From assembly GCA_016765495.1 (NCBI GenBank), contig JAESPV010000027.1:62001-126000 (forward strand): DNA of 64,000 nt, in the 5' to 3' direction. The position numbers and the translations under genes were made by a program. This DNA comes from Desulfocapsa sp. GTDB taxonomy: Bacteria > Desulfobacterota > Desulfobulbia > Desulfobulbales > Desulfocapsaceae. Under the pieces are notes generated by a model that worked only from the letters and a program-made list of their open reading frames with translations, was not told the origin of the DNA and made no database searches. Shown here piece after piece: positions 37,434 to 46,997 of the stretch; the stretch's first letter is position 1; every line of letters starts with the position of its first letter.

Positions 37434-37805
37434 ATGGGTAAGAATGTATTGTTGGTTGATGATTCCAGCACCATGAGAAAAATCATAGGCAGATCTTTAC
37501 GCCAGGCAGGAATAGATTTTGATAATATTTACGAAGCAGCAGATGGACTTGAAGCACTTGAGGTGCTGGAGAGTGAGAGCGTAGATATAGTGCTTAGTGA
37601 TATCAATATGCCCAATATGGATGGAATTAGTTTCCTTCGTGAAAAATCCACCAGAGATGCTATAAAAGATATCCCGGTATTGATGATATCAACCGAGACT
37701 GGTGATGATATAATAGGTGAAGCGAAATCGCTTGGAGCTGTTGGGGCAATCAAAAAGCCTTTCACCCCTGATAAGGTTAATGAGGTTCTTGGGCCACTTT
37801 TGTAA
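37434..37805 (+). CDS. cheY: Chemotaxis response regulator CheY
   Basis: This single receiver domain of 123 residues has all phosphorylation residues: the acidic pair D9-D10, phospho-acceptor D56 (IVLSDINMPNMDG), S86/T87 and K108 (KKPF). No output domain follows, so it is the switch-binding type. AGGAGG lies 8 nt before ATG. It is followed by two cheX genes, whose products would dephosphorylate it. Confidence 0.93.
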   Translation: MGKNVLLVDDSSTMRKIIGRSLRQAGIDFDNIYEAADGLEALEVLESESVDIVLSDINMPNMDGISFLREKSTRDAIKDIPVLMISTETGDDIIGEAKSLGAVGAIKKPFTPDKVNEVLGPLL

Positions 37806-37830
37806 TGAACTCGTATAGAAGGAGAGTGGC

Positions 37831-38283
37831 GTGGAGATTCAGGATAAGTTGATTGAAGCGACCATGGATATTTTTTCCTCCATGGTCATGATGGAAATAA
37901 CTGTTAAAGAAATAATGACAGAGCATGGGCAGCTACAGGATTCAATCACCGGGATGATTGGTCTTGCCGGCACGCACAAAGGGGTTCTGGCTGTCCATTT
38001 TCCTTACACTGTTGCCATGGCAATTACGTCAAGTTTTCTAATGATGGATGTTGAAGAAATTAATGAAGATGTTCACGATGCTGTTGGTGAAATAGCAAAT
38101 ATGCTTGGAGGGAATGTGAAAACCATTCTTTCTGAGAAAGGTCGTGACATAGACCTGTCTCTTCCTTCTACAATAGCAGGTTCCCAATACAGTTTTCAAT
38201 CCGACAAGCAAATTGAAAAAGTAATCATAACATTTGATACAGGAGTTGGTACTTTTATGGTGGAGATGGATTTGGAAAAATAA
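37831..38283 (+). CDS. cheX: CheX-type CheY-P phosphatase
   Basis: The 150-residue protein matches CheX, a CheY-P phosphatase. It has the catalytic E-x2-N motif in VHDAVGEIANMLGGNVKTI and the C-terminal beta segment (GVGTFMVEMDL). The start is GTG at 37831, supported by GGAG 6 nt upstream and by alignment with the next gene. It lies 25 nt after cheY. Confidence 0.9.
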   Translation: MEIQDKLIEATMDIFSSMVMMEITVKEIMTEHGQLQDSITGMIGLAGTHKGVLAVHFPYTVAMAITSSFLMMDVEEINEDVHDAVGEIANMLGGNVKTILSEKGRDIDLSLPSTIAGSQYSFQSDKQIEKVIITFDTGVGTFMVEMDLEK

Positions 38284-38295
38284 CAGCCTGTGAAT

Positions 38296-38341
38296 GTATC
38301 CTTTTTACGACTATAAATACAACGGGTTTTAAAAAGGATAC
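38296..38341 (+). promoter_or_regulatory. Long-loop hairpin between the two cheX genes
   Basis: GTATCCTTTTT (38296-38306) and AAAAAGGATAC (38331-38341) form a perfect 11-bp inverted repeat with a 24-nt loop. The right arm contains an AAAGGA Shine-Dalgarno-like sequence just before an ATG at 38342. Folding would hide it. Confidence 0.55.
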
Positions 38342-38395
38342 ATGACAGTTTGTCTATTTTGTAATCAGATTTTTCGTAAATGGATGAAACAATAT

Positions 38396-38863
38396 ATGAA
38401 CGTAGGTCAAGCTATAATTGATGCAACAACTGAGGTTTTTTCAACCATGCTTATGGTTGATCTTGAAGTTGGAGAGACGGTAGAAGGAAAAGATGGGGAT
38501 ATTCCTGCCAATATCACGAGTATGATAGGTCTTGGTAAAGATATTCGCGGGATGCTGGCTGTGCATTGTCCTGCTGTAGTTGCAAAAGATATAACCGGCT
38601 CTTTTTTAGGAATGGAAGTTACTGAACTTAACGAAGATGTTAAGGATGCCATTGGCGAAATCGCCAATATGGTTGCCGGAAATATGAAGGTTGCATTTGG
38701 TGAGGATGGGAAAAATATTGAAATTGCCATTCCAACCACCATTATTGGGGACTCCTTTCGTACCAGTGGAATGGCGGGTGCTCATCGGGTAGCGGTTTAT
38801 TTTACCATGAATAATGAGGTTTTTCTGATAGAGTTGAAATATATCTGCTCAAGTGGTGATTAG
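38396..38863 (+). CDS. Second CheX-type CheY-P phosphatase
   Basis: This CheX paralogue has the catalytic E-x2-N motif (VKDAIGEIANMVAGNMKVAF). I place the start at 38396 (MNVGQAIIDATTEVFSTML) because it aligns with the start of the previous CheX; this gives 155 residues. An ATG at 38342 would add 18 unconserved residues, but has the better ribosome site, which lies inside a hairpin. The true start is unsettled. The two copies differ enough to be an old duplication. Confidence 0.85.
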   Translation: MNVGQAIIDATTEVFSTMLMVDLEVGETVEGKDGDIPANITSMIGLGKDIRGMLAVHCPAVVAKDITGSFLGMEVTELNEDVKDAIGEIANMVAGNMKVAFGEDGKNIEIAIPTTIIGDSFRTSGMAGAHRVAVYFTMNNEVFLIELKYICSSGD

Positions 38864-38945
38864 TGCTCATTCATTTTTGCAATGTCATGTCATGGCAGTG
38901 TCTAGGTTTATCTCGTGTTTTTCCTTTCAAATTGTTAAAGTTGGG

Positions 38946-38973
38946 TTAAGAAATACTTGTCATCAGTCGATAC
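38946..38973 (+). promoter_or_regulatory. Sigma-28-like promoter ahead of the tandem CheX protein
   Basis: The site reads TTAAGAAA, 12 nt, GTCGATAC. The -35 part differs by one base from the flagellin site (TAAAGAAA), and six of eight -10 bases match GCCGATAA. Transcription would start about 40 nt before ATG 39022. A sigma-70-like TTGTCA/TATAGG pair overlaps it. Confidence 0.4.
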
Positions 38974-39021
38974 TTTATTATAGGTGATGAAATTCAAAAC
39001 TTCTCTTTATAATTCTAAATT

Positions 39022-40824
39022 ATGTCTGTTGATAAAGCTAAAAAGAAAATAGATAAAATATTTGAGCTCACACAGGAGCGGGTCGCCGAAGAAGTTGGTG
39101 GACTTATGGGCGCAACAATGTCCATGTCAGATTTTTCAACACGGCTTATTTCTAAAGAAGATTTTTTTGATGAGCCCTCCGGAAAACTTGTTTTTGCGGA
39201 AATGCAATTATCTGGAGAGATTGAAGGGGACGGTTGTATTCTTGTTACTGTTAAAGATGCAATCCGCCTTGGTGGAACCCTCATTATGCTTCCTGATAAT
39301 GAGCTTGAAGAATCTGTCTCATCCGAAGATTACAGTGAGGAAATTGAGGATTCCTATGGTGAAATAGCAAATATTGTAGCGGGTGCATATACCAAAACAT
39401 TTGAAGAAATGTACTCAAAGAATTTTCGTTTCATTCGTAAGAATCTGGAAGTAATCACCCCCATGAAAGTGGATGTGGAGTCCGACAAACCTATTCCAAA
39501 TCAAAGCTATTATCAGGTCTCTGCTGCAATGACTTTAAATGATGCGGAAATGGGGCAGCTGATTGTACTCGTTCCTGCAGAGTCTTTTGGGCTTGATGTA
39601 CAGGAAAATGCTGAGCAGGATGCCGTCTCCGACGTAACAGAGAATGGGACAACACCCGAAAAAGCAACAGATGAAAATCAACCCGCTTCAGACAGTGATG
39701 CTGCACTAGCAGGTCAAACAGCAACAAATGCTAAGCCATTTGATGTAGAAAAACAGAAAAAACGTGTTGATGCCTGTTTAAAAGAATCTCATGCCCGTAT
39801 GGGTAAAGAACTTGGGGATATGCTTGGTACTGAAGTAAAACTTTCAGAACATACAACTCGCCTGGTGAATAAAGAAGACTACTTCTTTGATGAGGCGTCT
39901 GGAAAACAAATCCTTGCACATATGGATGTGGTTGGAGATATTGCAGGGAAGAGTTATCTTTACATGAGTTTAAAAGATGCAATATTCATTGGTGGGACAC
40001 TCATTATGCTCCCGCCGGGTGAACTTGAAAAAAGTGTTGCAGGAGAAGATTTTAACGATGACACAGAGGATGCATACGGTGAAATAGCAAATATTATTTC
40101 AGGCGTTTATACAAAGGTGTTTGAAGAACAATATCCGGATAAGATTCGTTTTATAAAAACCGGCCTGGAACAGATTGTACCAATGAAAGTAGATACAGAG
40201 TCAGATGCCCCCATGCCTGATGGTTCCTATTATATGGCAACGAGCAGGGTTAGCATTGGTGATAAATCCCTTGGTAACCTGCAGCTACTTGTTCCACCAT
40301 CTCTCTTTCAACTTGAACTGCTGGGAGAAGAAACGGCTGCGGATGATGCACAGACCGTTGAAAAAGCAAAAGCTAATGTAGGTGGAAGTGGTAAGGCTGA
40401 TGCTGGTACAGACTTTGGTGCGACTGGAGTTAGAGCAGCAGGCGGGGGGGAGGGAGGACGCACTCCTGAGTTTGTCATCCTGAGCAATGATGGTGGTGTC
40501 TGCTCGACAATAACAGCTGTATTAAATAAACAGGGAAAAGCTTATAAGGTGCTGGATTATAAAGAGAGTATCAGTGACTATCTTCCAGGTAATGTGAAGG
40601 CAGTTTTTCTTGTTATGGCAACCGTTGACGAACAGGGATTGGGGGTCGCTATAAAAATCAGTGCGGCAAGTTCTTTGCCGCTTATTGCAGTAGGCCCCGA
40701 GTGGACACGAACAAAGGTTATAAAGGCTGTAAAGTATGGGGTTGGTGATATTCTCCTCACACCTGCAAGTGAAGCTGATATCATGGAGAAAATTAATTCA
40801 GTTCAGGCAAAAATGGCGGCTTAG
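39022..40824 (+). CDS. Tandem CheX/CheC-like protein with degenerate receiver domain
   Basis: The 600 residues contain two homologous domains. Domain 1 (about 1-195) has DSYGEIANIVAGAYTKTFEE and domain 2 (about 245-435) has DAYGEIANIISGVYTKVFEE, each with the E-x2-N phosphatase motif. Both share RLxxKEDxF and LGGTLIMLP-type blocks. A linker of low complexity follows, then a receiver-like domain (about 488-600) in which the acceptor Asp, the acidic pair and the Lys before Pro are replaced (VFLVMA, LLTPAS). There is no ribosome site, and an in-frame stop lies just upstream of ATG. A role in CheY-P removal is inferred. Confidence 0.75.
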   Translation: MSVDKAKKKIDKIFELTQERVAEEVGGLMGATMSMSDFSTRLISKEDFFDEPSGKLVFAEMQLSGEIEGDGCILVTVKDAIRLGGTLIMLPDNELEESVSSEDYSEEIEDSYGEIANIVAGAYTKTFEEMYSKNFRFIRKNLEVITPMKVDVESDKPIPNQSYYQVSAAMTLNDAEMGQLIVLVPAESFGLDVQENAEQDAVSDVTENGTTPEKATDENQPASDSDAALAGQTATNAKPFDVEKQKKRVDACLKESHARMGKELGDMLGTEVKLSEHTTRLVNKEDYFFDEASGKQILAHMDVVGDIAGKSYLYMSLKDAIFIGGTLIMLPPGELEKSVAGEDFNDDTEDAYGEIANIISGVYTKVFEEQYPDKIRFIKTGLEQIVPMKVDTESDAPMPDGSYYMATSRVSIGDKSLGNLQLLVPPSLFQLELLGEETAADDAQTVEKAKANVGGSGKADAGTDFGATGVRAAGGGEGGRTPEFVILSNDGGVCSTITAVLNKQGKAYKVLDYKESISDYLPGNVKAVFLVMATVDEQGLGVAIKISAASSLPLIAVGPEWTRTKVIKAVKYGVGDILLTPASEADIMEKINSVQAKMAA

Positions 40825-40896: not shown

Positions 40897-41802
40897 TTAC
40901 ATAGCAAAGTCTCTCACAACTCCCTGTGAGCCATGTTTCTGTTTACGTCTCGTAACTATGCCTGTACCCGGTTGGTATTCCACCCGAACTGTTCCGGTGG
41001 AGAGTTCCTGGCGGTTGATTCCAGTGAGAGGAATAGTCACTGTTTTCTCTGTGTCCGGAAGATAGATGGCAACCCCCTGTGACCTGCCGATTTCACGACT
41101 GTCCCCGGGGCGATCGTTGGGAATAAAGCGAAGAAACACGTTGCCAAATGCAGAGCCGTCTCCACTGCGGGAAAAAGAAACTACGGCAGCAATGCCTGCT
41201 GGAGCCTGAGGGAAATCTTTCACCGCAATAGCCTGCGGAGCAACATCTGCCGTCAATCCGCCATGCTGAATGATTATCGGGAAGGTGGATTCAACAATGA
41301 TATCCAAATCAATCGCAGTGCCTGTTCTTTCACTATTGTCAACTTTTGCAGAAGAGGATTTATCCGTAGACAAAGGCGTGAGGCGGAGACGGGTTTGGTA
41401 TTCTCCCCGTGGCAGTTCCCTGGGCTTGCGCACCATCAATTTAACAACCTGACGTTTCCCCGCCTCAATGGTTGCCCTGCGGGGTGCAAAGCGAATCATT
41501 TTTTTTACCATCTGTTCTTCTTCTGTTTCAGTCTCCGGCTTATAGAGTTTCCCGTTTGCCCCTTTTCGCATGGTGACCAAGGAGAGTTTATACGTTATCG
41601 ACTCCTGTGAAGTATTTATGACATTGGCAGTTATGGAACGTTGCCGATCGGTGAATATCATCCGCACCGGATTTATCATCAGCATTTTTGTTGCCGCCTG
41701 AGCAGCACCAGGAAACTGGGCCAGCAGAAGACAAACCAACACCATTGGCATACTCTTCAAAAACAGTTTCTGCTTCCGGGGTGAACGTCGCATAATAAGC
41801 AT
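40897..41802 (-). CDS. PapD-like periplasmic pilus chaperone
   Basis: This 301-residue exported protein has a signal peptide (about 1-37, ending AAQA) and two immunoglobulin-like parts. The first has INPVRMIFTDRQRSITANVI and IRFAPRRATIEAGKRQVVKL, the G1-strand pattern of fimbrial chaperones. The second includes FRFIPNDRPGD-like FLRFIPNDRPGD. AGGAG lies 8 nt before ATG. It is the last gene of the DUF4402 operon. Compared with enteric PapD (about 220 residues) it is longer. Confidence 0.8.
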   Translation of the reverse strand: MLIMRRSPRKQKLFLKSMPMVLVCLLLAQFPGAAQAATKMLMINPVRMIFTDRQRSITANVINTSQESITYKLSLVTMRKGANGKLYKPETETEEEQMVKKMIRFAPRRATIEAGKRQVVKLMVRKPRELPRGEYQTRLRLTPLSTDKSSSAKVDNSERTGTAIDLDIIVESTFPIIIQHGGLTADVAPQAIAVKDFPQAPAGIAAVVSFSRSGDGSAFGNVFLRFIPNDRPGDSREIGRSQGVAIYLPDTEKTVTIPLTGINRQELSTGTVRVEYQPGTGIVTRRKQKHGSQGVVRDFAM

Positions 41803-41818
41803 AAATACTATCTCCTGG

Positions 41819-42295
41819 TTAAAGAAAGTTTAGTTGGATGGTCATGGAACCACTATAGTTTCCATAAACTGTATTGCCGGGTAATATGAGCTTCCCACCG
41901 ATACTGATAGTGACCGTGGCGCCGCCACCGGGAAGGTCGACTCCCGTAAGATTATATTGAGAATGAGAGGGGATGTCAGTAATGCTGAGAATACGCGTAC
42001 CGTCCGAAAGGGTAGCAGAGAGTGGGTAGGTGATATCGACATGCTCCGCTTCCGTGGATGTGAGAAGGAGCCGGCCGCTATGGCTCCCTGTTATCAGGGA
42101 GCGGCTACATGTCGCAAGTACCGGGCCGTTTTCTGCGGCAATAATGATGGTATCGCCACTGGGATGAAGGTCAATGATACCGAGATCGATGGGGGTGACC
42201 TGGCTCACCTCTCCTGCCAAAGTGGCAGAAGCGGTGAACAGGCCTGGCAACATGGTTGCAAGCATAAAGAAAATGCTCAGGCGATGTTGCATCAT
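41819..42295 (-). CDS. DUF4402 pilin-like protein, minor
   Basis: The 158-residue exported protein has a signal peptide (about 1-27) and a beta-rich body of the DUF4402 type: IDLGIIDLHPSGDTIIIAAE and a C-terminal GGKLILPGNTVYGNYSGSMT. The G-x-L-x-LP-x-G-x-Y-x-G-x-M pattern matches the neighbouring DUF4402 protein. Its start overlaps that gene's stop (ATGA). It may be a minor or tip subunit; this is inferred from gene order. Confidence 0.75.
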   Translation of the reverse strand: MMQHRLSIFFMLATMLPGLFTASATLAGEVSQVTPIDLGIIDLHPSGDTIIIAAENGPVLATCSRSLITGSHSGRLLLTSTEAEHVDITYPLSATLSDGTRILSITDIPSHSQYNLTGVDLPGGGATVTISIGGKLILPGNTVYGNYSGSMTIQLNFL

Positions 42296-42843
42296 GTGTA
42301 ATTCATGGTAACAGCAGTGCTACCAGTATAGGTACCAGTTGTTGCACCTGAAGGAAGGACCAGTGATCCACCAACATGTATCAGCGTATCAACCCCAGCA
42401 GCGTGCGTGACAGTACCATCGGTGGTTCCCCCGCCAGAGTTAGCGTCAATGAGGCTCATGGTAGCACTGGTGGTGCCATCTGTTAGAACGACACTCACCT
42501 CATATGATACATCAACATCAAAACCGATGGGCGAGGAAATGGTTATCAGAGCACTGGTTCCACCGGTAACCACTGATGCACCCGATGAGGCGGGTACTGC
42601 GGCTGCACCACCAGCGCCACTACCAGCACCACTTGCATTAATAACTATGGTATCACCAGCAGGGATAAGTTCAATAGAGCCAAAATTCATCGCTGTTGTC
42701 ATATCTTCAACAAGGGATGATGTAACAGTAGCGGTAATCGGCACATCCACAGTTCCTGCTGTAACTGTCGTCCCTGACAATGCAACAATTCCTAAGAGAG
42801 CAGCACTCGCAAGAAACGTACTTTTTTTCCTGGTTTTCCACAT
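42292..42843 (-). CDS. DUF4402 pilin-like protein, probable major subunit
   Basis: This 183-residue exported protein has a signal peptide (about 1-29, ending TVTAG), then MNFGSIELIPAGDTIVINAS and the C-terminal GGSLVLPSGATTGTYTGSTA VTMNYT typical of DUF4402. It is rich in Gly, Ala, Ser and Thr, and visibly richer in G+C than the flagellar genes. A good ribosome site (TAGGAGAAA) precedes ATG. It is first in the operon after a near-consensus sigma-28 promoter. Structural role as fibre subunit is inferred from the chaperone and usher-like neighbours. Confidence 0.78.
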   Translation of the reverse strand: MWKTRKKSTFLASAALLGIVALSGTTVTAGTVDVPITATVTSSLVEDMTTAMNFGSIELIPAGDTIVINASGAGSGAGGAAAVPASSGASVVTGGTSALITISSPIGFDVDVSYEVSVVLTDGTTSATMSLIDANSGGGTTDGTVTHAAGVDTLIHVGGSLVLPSGATTGTYTGSTAVTMNYT

Positions 42844-42942
42844 AATATTTCTCCTACCTAATAATTCTTAAAGCTACTGTCGTTGGATACAAGACAGTGC
42901 CGTTTATTTGGAAAGAGCCCTTTGCTTTTCCATATAAGTTCC

Positions 42943-42970
42943 TTATCGGCAAGCTGTTCCATACAGTTTA
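42943..42970 (-). promoter_or_regulatory. Near-consensus sigma-28 promoter ahead of the DUF4402-chaperone operon
   Basis: The minus strand reads TAAACTGT, 12 nt, GCCGATAA. The -10 box is identical to the enteric FliA consensus, and the spacing equals the other sites in this window. It lies about 100 nt before the ATG at 42843 and 87 nt after the end of the usher-like gene. Confidence 0.65.
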
Positions 42971-43029
42971 TCTCTTTTTTGCAAAATTACGTTAAATCCT
43001 TATACTAAGCATATAAATGGGTTACATGC

Positions 43030-46000
43030 TTACACTACACCCCTCAATTTTTGTAATTTACCATCAGGGAATGAGTCAGATGTATCTTGATACACTTTGA
43101 GTGATTTGTTTTGAGCGTTCCTGTTAACAGCTGCAAGAGTAACAACTTCGCCGATTGGCCGAAATTGAGCAATTGGTAAAGGAATCGCTTCAAAGCGTGA
43201 TCCTCCTGTATCTTTCCTTTGTGTTGATTGAACAAGTGAAGCACCCTCCTGGATCAGTTTCCCAGAAGGTTCATTTAACCTTCTGGCAGTCGGCCCTGTA
43301 ACTAACCCATACACTCTTTCAAGATTCTGAATAGTGTCAGTTGCTGCAATTTCCTGAGCCTGACCCAAAGAGCTGGAAATTTCAGGTACAATGTCCATCC
43401 TTTCTTTCACCAGTGATTCTGCCACAAAGGTTGGCATAGGCTCTGGCTCAAGAATGTCAGCAATTGCCCGAGGATTCTCCACCGTGGATGAAGGCTTCAC
43501 TGGTTCTATAGCCGAAATATTTTCCCCACGACCACTCCCCACCGGTGCAACATTCTGCCTGTTATTTCCATCCGGTCCCTGAAGGCGGATATCCATACCG
43601 CTGGCAATGGTTCCATCGTTACCGATGGTTACCTTCAGCTCCTGACCACCTGCCAAAACGGAACCCTGCGGATCATCAGGACTCACCCGCAACGTATAAT
43701 CTCCTGGGAAAACTTTTTCAAAAAGATAAAAACCATCATATTCAGATCGAATGGATTGCACTATATTTCCTTCAGAATCAAGCAACTCCAACTGCACAAA
43801 AGCGAGATTCTTCATCACTCCCTGCCCATCTGTGGAGTAGACCGTTCCGTCTACCTCTCCCGTAGAAACCACAGGGAATTCGACATAATCAACATGTCCG
43901 GGTCGTGGAAGAATAGCTGTCCCTGCAAGTGAGGGCTGCCAGAAAGGATCTTCCAAAGTGTCAACGTCCACCTTAATGTCCGTGGGACTGTAGGCTGTCA
44001 GGCCAGTAATGGCAGCATGCCCACTCTCGCCTGTTGCAGCAGATTTTCTGGCCTGAGTTGCAAGCACGTCGACCTCAGGAAGCTGCGTATCACCCTCATC
44101 AAATACTTGATTATTATTTGCATCATGATAGACCAGAGCTTTTGCAGCGCCGCTGTTTGCCTTTCTTTCTGAACTCATAGCAATTGCCCAGCTGGGACTC
44201 ACCGGATCCGGCCCCAGAGAAAAAGACATGGTGGCAGCTACACTGACATTGTTATCACTGTCATAGGAAAGATGTGGAGAAAACGTTGCAAAACCGGCAT
44301 CCCAATCAAGCCTTGCTGTAGCCGTTGTTCGTTGATAAAGATCGTCATCATGAATCAGGTCAAATCCACCACTCAGCGTATTATTCATTTGCCAGTGACT
44401 TGAAAGGCTGTACCGAGTGATTTTATTTTTTTCGCCAAGGTCATACTGCATTCCCGCTAGTATCCGTACGGGCCCCGCATTGCCGGATACGTTAAGGTTT
44501 CCATCAATTAAATTGCCTTCACCCGGTCTGGTATCATTATAATTCCAATAGGTATTGTTGGTTACGTGTACACCTGCCATCCGACTTGAAAGACGGGCGC
44601 CAATTTTTGAAGTAATGTAATCTGAGTAATTGGTATTTTCATAGGACAGGCCATAGGAAATGGGGCTAGACAATTTTGTCTCAGGGAGCATTCCCTGAAT
44701 AGTTAATTCCGACTTGGATTCCAAAACACTATTAGGACGGTTTTCCATAACAAAATCTGAAAACCATTCATGCTTTGCCTTGATGTCAACAGATCCGACG
44801 GATGTCTGAGCTAAGGCGGACAAACCACTCCCACTGGCAGTGTCATAGAGATAATCTACCTGCCCATACAGGAAAGAGGTACTGCCTGAAAATCCTGCCT
44901 GAAGGTAATTGTGGCGTTCCTTGTTAAATTCTACACTTGCCAGCCCTAAAGCGACAGAGAGCGAATCTGTAAGCCCGTACTTATAATTCCCCCTGAAACG
45001 CGCACTATTGTCTTCAGGGGGACGCCCTTTTTCATCAATTCCCCAAATAGTTTTTTCTCGTTGGGAAAGAGACAGGTCATACTGATACTCCCCGGAAGGA
45101 AGCATCTCCGAGCCAACAGGAATCGCTTGATCATCTATTATTTCTTTTTGTCCCTGGGGGCCATAGGCGATGACTTGAAAATCGTTATTACCATAAAAGA
45201 GAGGAACATCTTCAAAATAGTACCTGCCGTCAGCTCCCACCAAGGCGGAGTCGAGCAGAGTGCCATTGTAATGCAACTCCACTTCCCAGCCCGGCAATAC
45301 ATTTCCTTCAAATGTGGTCAAGTCAAAATCTGATGTCCTGACCAAATCAGCATTACTGAAAGTAATACCCCGTTCAGGACTTGGTCTGTCAAGAATGGCG
45401 AAAGAGGCAGGTAAAATATCTCCCAAACTCATTTGAGTCGCCTGTAACGGGCCAAGTAAATCAGCGGCAGGAGCAACTCGTTCCAATCTGATCCGTGCTG
45501 TATTCAAAGGGTCATCTTCATAGCCTGAAACAAAATACTCTGAACTCATATAAAACAGATCGCCACGTCCAAGGAGTGAGTAGCTAGACTTTGTATCGGA
45601 ACTTTTAAACTCCTTCTGGTCAAACCCACCGGACATACTCACATCCATTACAGGAATAGAAAACAAATCATACTCAAGTGCACGAACCGGATATTGTAAA
45701 GCCTCAACACTATTGCTGCGCAACCGCAGACGACGTTCTTCCCGTTCCATCTTTGCCTGCAAGGGCAGCTTTTCTCTAGGAGTGATCGATACAGATAACT
45801 CTGAGCGGGAAATATCAAAATCCAGAGGAAGCCATGAACTAAATGCTCTGGAATCGACATAAATTTCATTGTCATAGACAAAAGCAGCATTTTTTTGCCA
45901 CGGAACGGTATCTCCAGCTATGCGCAACTCCTGCTTATTAATATCAAGTGAAAATGTTCGATCTTCAGAAATAAACCAACCTGTGGCCTTGGCTGCTGCG

Positions 46001-46782
46001 GGGTCAATATCAATTTTCAGATCTAATGCGGTTGCAATTTCACCAAGCGGCAACAGGGTAATATTTTCGTCACCATACCCAAAGGATGTCATCTGTAAAC
46101 CAATGGGTCTGCAAATCACATTGAAAATCAGACTATACTCATCATTTAACAGAGAAGGCGAAGCTGAGACCTGGGCCGCACTGGCAGGAGAGTTTGTTGA
46201 TTGGGGAGTGTGTACAACGGGAGTTCCTGGTTGCGCCTTAATCTGAGTAGATAGAGTATGTTGTGGCTCAACAAAAGCAGTAATTGTGGCCGGTACATTC
46301 GCTGCACCGGGGGGAGCTTGGGGCAATGGCAAAGACTGCTCCAGTTCAACAAAACTATCGTCAGTTTTTTGACGGCCATTTGTCTCAGTGGGAACGAGTC
46401 GAGATTCTGATTGATCAAGAAAGTAACGGGAATCATACAGGTGAATACCTGCTTGACTTAACGTTTGGGTAAAGGTATCAAAACGTCTCCAGTCGACCTT
46501 TTCACCATGGTTATTCGCCATAAGCAGCAGATGTCGTTGCAATAAAACATCTGCAAGTCGTGCTGCAGCTCTGTCATTATTTTGACGAAGTGACTGCCAC
46601 CGAGAATACTGTCCGGTGGAGCTGAGCAGCAGATCTGCTGTTTCAACTTTCACCTTTTCGTCAAAGGATGATGTGGTTTTATTCACATCAGTCCGCCTGG
46701 ATACGGTATTCGAGGACGGAACTGCTGTGATATTCGTCGCTTTACTCAAGTGTTCACTCACTGCAATAAAGTTATAATGCAA
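43030..46782 (-). CDS. Usher-like outer-membrane protein, 1250 residues
   Basis: Residues 1-210 are polar and proline-rich. Residues 215-340 (LLPLGEIATALDLKIDIDPA, then DNEIYVDSRAFSSWLPL) resemble a copper-amine-oxidase-N-like fold seen in usher-like proteins. Residues 355-860 alternate in the manner of a beta barrel, with a plug-like beta domain at about 485-555 (GADGRYYFEDVPLFYGNNDF). Residues 885-905 carry DANNNQVFDEGD, and 975-1060 form a carboxypeptidase-regulatory-like domain (SEYDGFYLFEKVFPGDYTLR). A disordered tail follows. The start is TTG at 46782 with no ribosome site and no signal peptide, which is odd for an outer-membrane protein. Role as fibre exporter is inferred from its chaperone and DUF4402 neighbours. 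Confidence 0.7.
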   Translation of the reverse strand: MHYNFIAVSEHLSKATNITAVPSSNTVSRRTDVNKTTSSFDEKVKVETADLLLSSTGQYSRWQSLRQNNDRAAARLADVLLQRHLLLMANNHGEKVDWRRFDTFTQTLSQAGIHLYDSRYFLDQSESRLVPTETNGRQKTDDSFVELEQSLPLPQAPPGAANVPATITAFVEPQHTLSTQIKAQPGTPVVHTPQSTNSPASAAQVSASPSLLNDEYSLIFNVICRPIGLQMTSFGYGDENITLLPLGEIATALDLKIDIDPAAAKATGWFISEDRTFSLDINKQELRIAGDTVPWQKNAAFVYDNEIYVDSRAFSSWLPLDFDISRSELSVSITPREKLPLQAKMEREERRLRLRSNSVEALQYPVRALEYDLFSIPVMDVSMSGGFDQKEFKSSDTKSSYSLLGRGDLFYMSSEYFVSGYEDDPLNTARIRLERVAPAADLLGPLQATQMSLGDILPASFAILDRPSPERGITFSNADLVRTSDFDLTTFEGNVLPGWEVELHYNGTLLDSALVGADGRYYFEDVPLFYGNNDFQVIAYGPQGQKEIIDDQAIPVGSEMLPSGEYQYDLSLSQREKTIWGIDEKGRPPEDNSARFRGNYKYGLTDSLSVALGLASVEFNKERHNYLQAGFSGSTSFLYGQVDYLYDTASGSGLSALAQTSVGSVDIKAKHEWFSDFVMENRPNSVLESKSELTIQGMLPETKLSSPISYGLSYENTNYSDYITSKIGARLSSRMAGVHVTNNTYWNYNDTRPGEGNLIDGNLNVSGNAGPVRILAGMQYDLGEKNKITRYSLSSHWQMNNTLSGGFDLIHDDDLYQRTTATARLDWDAGFATFSPHLSYDSDNNVSVAATMSFSLGPDPVSPSWAIAMSSERKANSGAAKALVYHDANNNQVFDEGDTQLPEVDVLATQARKSAATGESGHAAITGLTAYSPTDIKVDVDTLEDPFWQPSLAGTAILPRPGHVDYVEFPVVSTGEVDGTVYSTDGQGVMKNLAFVQLELLDSEGNIVQSIRSEYDGFYLFEKVFPGDYTLRVSPDDPQGSVLAGGQELKVTIGNDGTIASGMDIRLQGPDGNNRQNVAPVGSGRGENISAIEPVKPSSTVENPRAIADILEPEPMPTFVAESLVKERMDIVPEISSSLGQAQEIAATDTIQNLERVYGLVTGPTARRLNEPSGKLIQEGASLVQSTQRKDTGGSRFEAIPLPIAQFRPIGEVVTLAAVNRNAQNKSLKVYQDTSDSFPDGKLQKLRGVV

Positions 46783-46997
46783 GGACTGGATGAAGCCGTT
46801 ACGTTTTTATTGCAAAATGTATTCCACTCAAAGCCGCGGGGCATTAAAAATTACGAGTACTCCCGCTCGTAAAAGGAAAATAGAAGAAAATAGAAGGAAA
46901 AAAAGAATGGGGGACATGATTTTTTTTAATTTGGGATGTCCTCGATTTACACTTTTCGTTAGCGTTGAAGAGCCAATACCTGGTGCTGGTTTTTTAA

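Follow-up and report, generated by a model that had tools for sequence, protein, structure and literature searches.

A divergent chaperone-usher locus of Desulfocapsa sp. with putative DUF4402 fibre subunits and a large usher-like protein without a visible signal peptide

Outer-membrane barrels normally pass through Sec, and a signal peptide is expected on them. The classical, alternative and archaic chaperone-usher systems are told apart partly by the anchor residues of their chaperones, according to PMC4654587, which also describes two basic anchors for the classical chaperones (Arg20 and Lys139 of Caf1M), a proline that is invariant across chaperone-usher chaperones (Pro59 of CsuC, Pro60 of EcpB), and invariant cysteines in the archaic pilins. 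A survey of ushers gathered its sequences with the Pfam profile PF00577, according to PMC5717340. The locus described here lies in a window of 64,000 nt (contig JAESPV010000027.1, positions 62,001 to 126,000) from a Desulfocapsa sp. genome, which comprises 3.8 Mb on 108 contigs with completeness at 99.96 and contamination at 7.28. With a probability of roughly 0.8, it encodes a divergent chaperone-usher pathway that builds a thin surface fibre from DUF4402 subunits by way of an usher without a visible signal peptide.

Four open reading frames, all on the minus strand, make up the locus and were found where the initial annotation had placed them: a gene for an usher-like protein (43030-46782), two for DUF4402 proteins (subunit 1, 42292-42843; subunit 2, 41819-42295), and one for a PapD-like chaperone (40897-41802). 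The reading frame of the usher is real but its start at 46782 is probably too early; alignment favors a TTG at 46749 and hence a probable extent of 43030-46749. Upstream of 46782 the frame is closed by a stop at a distance of 27 nt. The usher-like protein found no match in 19 other genomes of the same genus.

At E ≤ 0.001, an usher profile matched 25 of the 257 genomes of the order. Six of these possess a large usher (the window's own genome, G083, G096, G097, G110, and G197), G094 has a relative that is shorter, and the matches in the remaining 18 are just short stretches, mostly C-terminal domains. A search with the N-terminal domain (NTD) described below, which is blind to ushers lacking it, detected 14/291 genomes in the class of G436, eight of them with usher-relative open frames of 1187-1570 aa. 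The total is 14 large ushers; the one from G096 (locus L005) is cut by its contig, leaving 13 loci with intact surroundings from seven genera, among them that of Desulfogranum japonicum (L004; order Desulfobulbales). Co-occurrence, on which the proposal of a joint system had been made to depend, is complete: the genes for subunit 1, subunit 2, and the chaperone stand beside the usher gene in that order in 13/13 intact loci. They are collinear with it in six (the window, L004, L037, L071, L072, and L073) and convergent in seven (L006, L036, L069, L070, L074, L078, and L079), where the subunits of L078 and L079 were missed by BLAST and placed by position.

Shorter versions of the locus occur on plasmids. 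A tblastn search with the usher matched 7 of 72,556 plasmid records at 26%-30% identity, and DUF4402, chaperone, and usher genes lie together in all four records examined. These uncharacterised operons, from Polaromonas, Sphingopyxis, and Pseudoalteromonas and thus from alpha-, beta-, and gammaproteobacteria, have the same gene set as the window locus, but their ushers are shorter than the large ushers (893-965 aa) and lack the NTD. The signal-bearing usher of G094 (L038), 24% identical over 858 residues, adjoins weak DUF4402 and PapD_N matches. The system had been put forward as undescribed, and DUF4402 indeed receives no mention in the literature searched, which was short of most subscription papers; yet it belongs to a known kind, of which it forms a divergent branch, and this branch extends to the three proteobacterial classes.

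A Pfam scan with PF00577, the standard usher profile, gave no match to the window protein. As PF00577 was built on known ushers, a missed match tests the profile; among the large ushers scanned it matched one, that of L072 (E 0.0065; 15.8 bits, where the cut-off is 27.1), and a search at the curated cut-off would miss the large ushers scanned. The 19-sequence usher profile, compared with a FimD/HtrE profile and four column-shuffled controls, matched FimD/HtrE with a probability of 91, an E-value of 1e-6, and a score of 65.2 over 465 columns (shuffled controls ≤18.6), the matching portion being the middle and C-terminal part of the protein; EcpC gave no match in the profile comparison. At the level of homology, the usher-like barrel first read from the sequence is supported. 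The structure model of the usher is poor (mean pLDDT 49.7): Foldseek rows 1-14 were all FimD or PapC, with low TM-scores of at most 0.28, and in the VIA ranking porins stood level with or above ushers. PDB sequence searches with the usher, the chaperone, and the NTD as queries returned no chaperone-usher protein. By homology, the protein would belong to the outer-membrane usher type.

The amine-oxidase-N-like front of the usher is confirmed as a Cu_amine_oxidN1-like domain (45784-46077; PF07833, E 1.3e-7), which may stand where an usher has its N-terminal periplasmic domain, but it is preceded by a separate helical domain that had gone unnoted (46405-46671; residues 38-126 of the open reading frame, from the 19-sequence alignment and the helices of the model). 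Downstream lie the predicted barrel (residues 411-855; 44218-45552), placed by the low-confidence model and the profile match, with a plug-like insert at about 45115-45324 in the same model, and a CarboxypepD_reg domain in the C-terminal part (43675-43854; PF13620, E 1.9e-10). The tail (43033-43569), in which Pfam detects no SPOR domain, is predicted from composition to be disordered; the last two features agree with the initial annotation.

Both window subunits pass the Pfam cut-off for DUF4402 (subunit 1, E 2.3e-9; subunit 2, E 2.6e-10), and 24/26 subunits of the 13 loci match it at E ≤ 0.01. Subunit 1 possesses a donor-strand-like N-terminal extension (42700-42756 in the window), along which hydrophobic residues alternate, whereas subunit 2 does not, and this holds in 13/13 loci. 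From the last candidate cleavage site, placed by a crude rule, to a conserved Phe-Gly there are 21-30 residues in subunit 1 and 7-13 in subunit 2; from the initial Met the figures are 48-59 and 34-44. Lacking the extension, subunit 2 could act as a strand acceptor only and would therefore take the tip position, where the fibre starts; subunit 1 would form the shaft. Complete Ig folds in both subunits, which would speak against strand donation, were not seen; the modelling covered subunit 1, whose model is pilin-like and of low confidence (mean pLDDT 55). Its best Foldseek row is CsuA/B of the archaic Csu pili (E 0.018, probability 0.99; no row reaches E 0.001). VIA rows 1-24 are all chaperone-usher pilins, with Z from 7.5 to 5.5, where a Z under 8 can mean merely a common arrangement; the first protein of another kind comes in row 25.

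The window chaperone matches PapD_N below the cut-off (E 0.021), and among its relatives those of L037, L043, and L045 pass the cut-off and 9/12 reach E ≤ 0.01. A profile of 16 chaperones matched a FimC/YadV/EcpB profile with a probability of 87, E 3.6e-6, and a score of 47.3 (shuffled controls ≤16.1), and more weakly the single chaperones YadV (E 3.3e-5), FimC (0.0017), and EcpB (0.011). The assignment as PapD-like therefore stands, on the relatives and the profile match; a PDB search with the chaperone returned a dirigent-like protein (E 0.0049) and a WxL-interacting protein (E 0.66). The chaperone gene of L074 (6080-6804), from a genome assembled as one contig, runs through two overlapping frames and is either broken or affected by a sequence error; it was left out of the chaperone alignment, which has 12 rows. 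Pro107 of the window protein, kept in 12/12, aligns with Pro60 of EcpB (precursor residue 80), although the EcpB alignment by itself is weak (probability 3.8).

Usher and chaperone thus match those of classical pili (FimD/FimC, HtrE/YadV) by profile. The differences are that the subunits here are DUF4402 proteins, that the usher has an NTD, no visible signal peptide and, in most relatives, a SPOR domain, and that no adhesin was recognised at the locus, the FimH-like two-domain type included, as had been remarked before. Arg47 of the window chaperone, kept in 12/12 rows, corresponds in the alignment to the Arg in strand A of FimC, and the FimC Lys aligns with Thr142; these FimC residues are the ones we take to be the counterparts of the Caf1M anchors. 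At the place of Arg89 of archaic and alternative chaperones, read from the same weak EcpB alignment, the window has Gln136 and 8/12 rows have Arg. The invariant cysteines of archaic pilins are absent: window subunit 1 has no cysteine and subunit 2 has one, fewer than two are present in 24/26 subunits, and there are none in 12/13 subunits 1. As far as these alignments go, the family mixes class marks, combining the FimC-like Arg (12/12) and an Arg at the Arg89 place (8/12) with the lack of an archaic cysteine pair (24/26 subunits).

Signal peptides were judged from the best 12-residue hydropathy within the first 60 residues, a hydropathy scale rather than SignalP. By this measure none is visible on the window usher from either 46749 or 46782, nor on any of the 13 large ushers (≤1.71 in 13/13), whereas the chaperones (≥2.30 in 12/12) and the subunits (≥2.03 in 24/26, the other two at 1.47 and 1.57) are signal-peptide-like. 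Over the first 140 residues the L073 usher peaks at 2.02, inside the NTD. The large ushers start with TTG in five cases and ATG in eight, several behind a Shine-Dalgarno-like sequence; the listed start of the L074 usher is probably too early. Differences between a close pair at the start codon number 3, 1, and 3 by codon position, too few to separate coding from non-coding sequence. In a tree of 19 ushers with three very long branches, the signal-less group needs two changes, which fits one origin or more. No paper in the literature searched, which was short of most subscription papers, pairs an outer-membrane usher with a missing signal peptide or an usher with a SPOR domain.

All 13 large ushers open with the helical NTD, of approximately 75 residues. 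In the usher model residues 1-90 are helical (ten-residue mean pLDDT 59-90), and the domain matches no Pfam or NCBIfam family above the cut-off and no PDB relative. As an impression, the N-termini may resemble flagellar or type III export signals. It occurs in 5 of the 395 genomes of a phylum sample, the window's own included. Outside ushers it makes up a standalone protein of 166 aa (L047, 6887-7387) in G436, a genome that yielded no usher relative at E 1e-15. It also occurs in 331-337-aa open frames of G666, G775, G812, and G899, and further in G261, G297, and G332; the copy in G797 has a stop. In two lineages, the NTD is combined with a weakly CHAP-like Cys/His domain in proteins without a signal peptide (L075, 1679-2674; L076, 5050-6042; L077, 4484-5479; L080, 2031-3029; L109, 4926-6047; L110, 5021-6010; L111, 6246-7424). 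By eye, the C-terminal domain of the non-usher proteins examined has conserved Cys and His, and no signal peptide is seen on them. Pfam, run on three, gave CHAP in two (E 0.018 and 0.0018) and an AmiA-like match in the third (0.16), all below the cut-off.

The missing signal counts against the fibre reading, since an outer-membrane barrel should need one, and judged from sequence the anomaly appears to be real as regards how export could occur. The export signal might be hidden by recoding, an undetected start or unusual weakness, in which case the usher would go through Sec in the ordinary way and its NTD would lie in the periplasm. We regard this as possible though doubtful: Sec is the normal path, five of the six related short ushers are signal-like (≥2.07; the sixth, that of L046, reaches 1.02 when read from the annotated start), and the window has an in-frame hydrophobic stretch upstream of the usher, behind two stop codons, but in-frame stops stand 3-42 nt upstream of the start in 13/13 large ushers, and in L004, L006, and L036 the 400 nt upstream contain no hydrophobic stretch in any frame. 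That all-frame check covered the window, L004, L005, L006, L036, and L037, with eight later loci checked in frame, and it detected one stretch each in L037 (about 170 nt upstream), L005 (248 nt), and the window (about 130 nt). The window stretch (46809-46917, minus strand) comprises an ATG and, after it, a hydrophobic run rich in T, in frame with the usher and cut off by the stop codons. Less probably still, the NTD could be a new module for export or envelope targeting that works without a signal peptide, common to the ushers and the CHAP-like enzymes and carrying both across the inner membrane by a route undescribed for an usher. Its presence at the head of signal-less proteins with so different a domain, as well as of the 13 signal-less ushers, speaks for this. 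Against it, the loci examined have no exporter gene in common, and as the CHAP matches lie below the cut-off (best E 0.0018), the NTD-CHAP-like proteins may be cytoplasmic.

A further alternative concerns the product. A SPOR domain ends 10/13 large ushers (L004, L006, L037, L069, L070, L071, L072, L073, L078, and L079), the exceptions being L036, L074, and the window, where a search for a remnant near the usher gave nothing better than an E-value of 0.23; the scan of one group yielded a count of two, which alignment identified as L004 and L006. On the Pseudoalteromonas plasmid the operon is flanked by two genes for separate SPOR proteins, followed by a TPR gene, in contrast to the fusion seen in most large ushers. 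A SPOR-held usher might display a DUF4402 coat or stalk, that is, a short structure spanning the periplasm or attached to the wall, in place of a long fibre, and the lack of a recognised separate adhesin would suit it. We consider this improbable, because a polymer with a tip calls for one subunit with an extension and one without, as seen here, and because the window usher itself has no SPOR domain.

The earlier proposal of a chaperone-usher-type surface fibre is supported at sequence level by the co-occurrence in 13/13 loci, the FimD/HtrE and FimC/YadV/EcpB profile matches, and the subunit 1 extension. In such a pathway, Sec would export the DUF4402 subunits to the periplasm, where the PapD-like chaperone, which itself carries a signal peptide, would cap them before passing them on to the outer-membrane usher barrel. 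Polymerization would follow by donor-strand exchange, with the extension of one subunit 1 filling the groove of its neighbor and subunit 2 presumably at the tip of the putative fibre. The usher would reach the outer membrane with its helical NTD probably taking part in targeting, and in most relatives the SPOR domain on its tail would hold the platform at the cell wall; the fusion suggests a pilus platform tied to cell-wall sites. Chaperone-usher assembly would thereby come to include a branch overlooked by the standard usher profile and, with it, a simple fibre of two subunits. A conserved family of ushers on which no signal peptide is visible contradicts the accepted export of outer-membrane barrels. 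The signal-less usher is open to direct test in cultured Desulfogranum japonicum DSM 18378.

In the window, the chaperone gene converges with a CheY-like gene and three CheX-like genes (37434-40824, plus strand; names given by eye). Among 19 genomes of the genus, the window's own included, the flanking CheX-like gene occurs in 17 and the flanking FolE2-like gene in 18; the two are about 150 kb apart in G008 and about 175 kb in G002, and they lie on different contigs in the other relatives that have both. No chaperone-usher locus genes were found beside the CheX-like gene in 19 CheX-side loci, inspected over short flanks. Elsewhere, a gene for a TPR-type membrane protein adjoins the locus in L004 (15795-17834), L036 (3933-5963), and L073 (10825-13305), with 30% identity between L004 and L036 and a weak likeness for L073. 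In one genus, a gene for a 572-aa protein, chemoreceptor-like by eye, is found near the locus (L071, 2374-4092; L072, 12564-14282; L078, 12403-14121).
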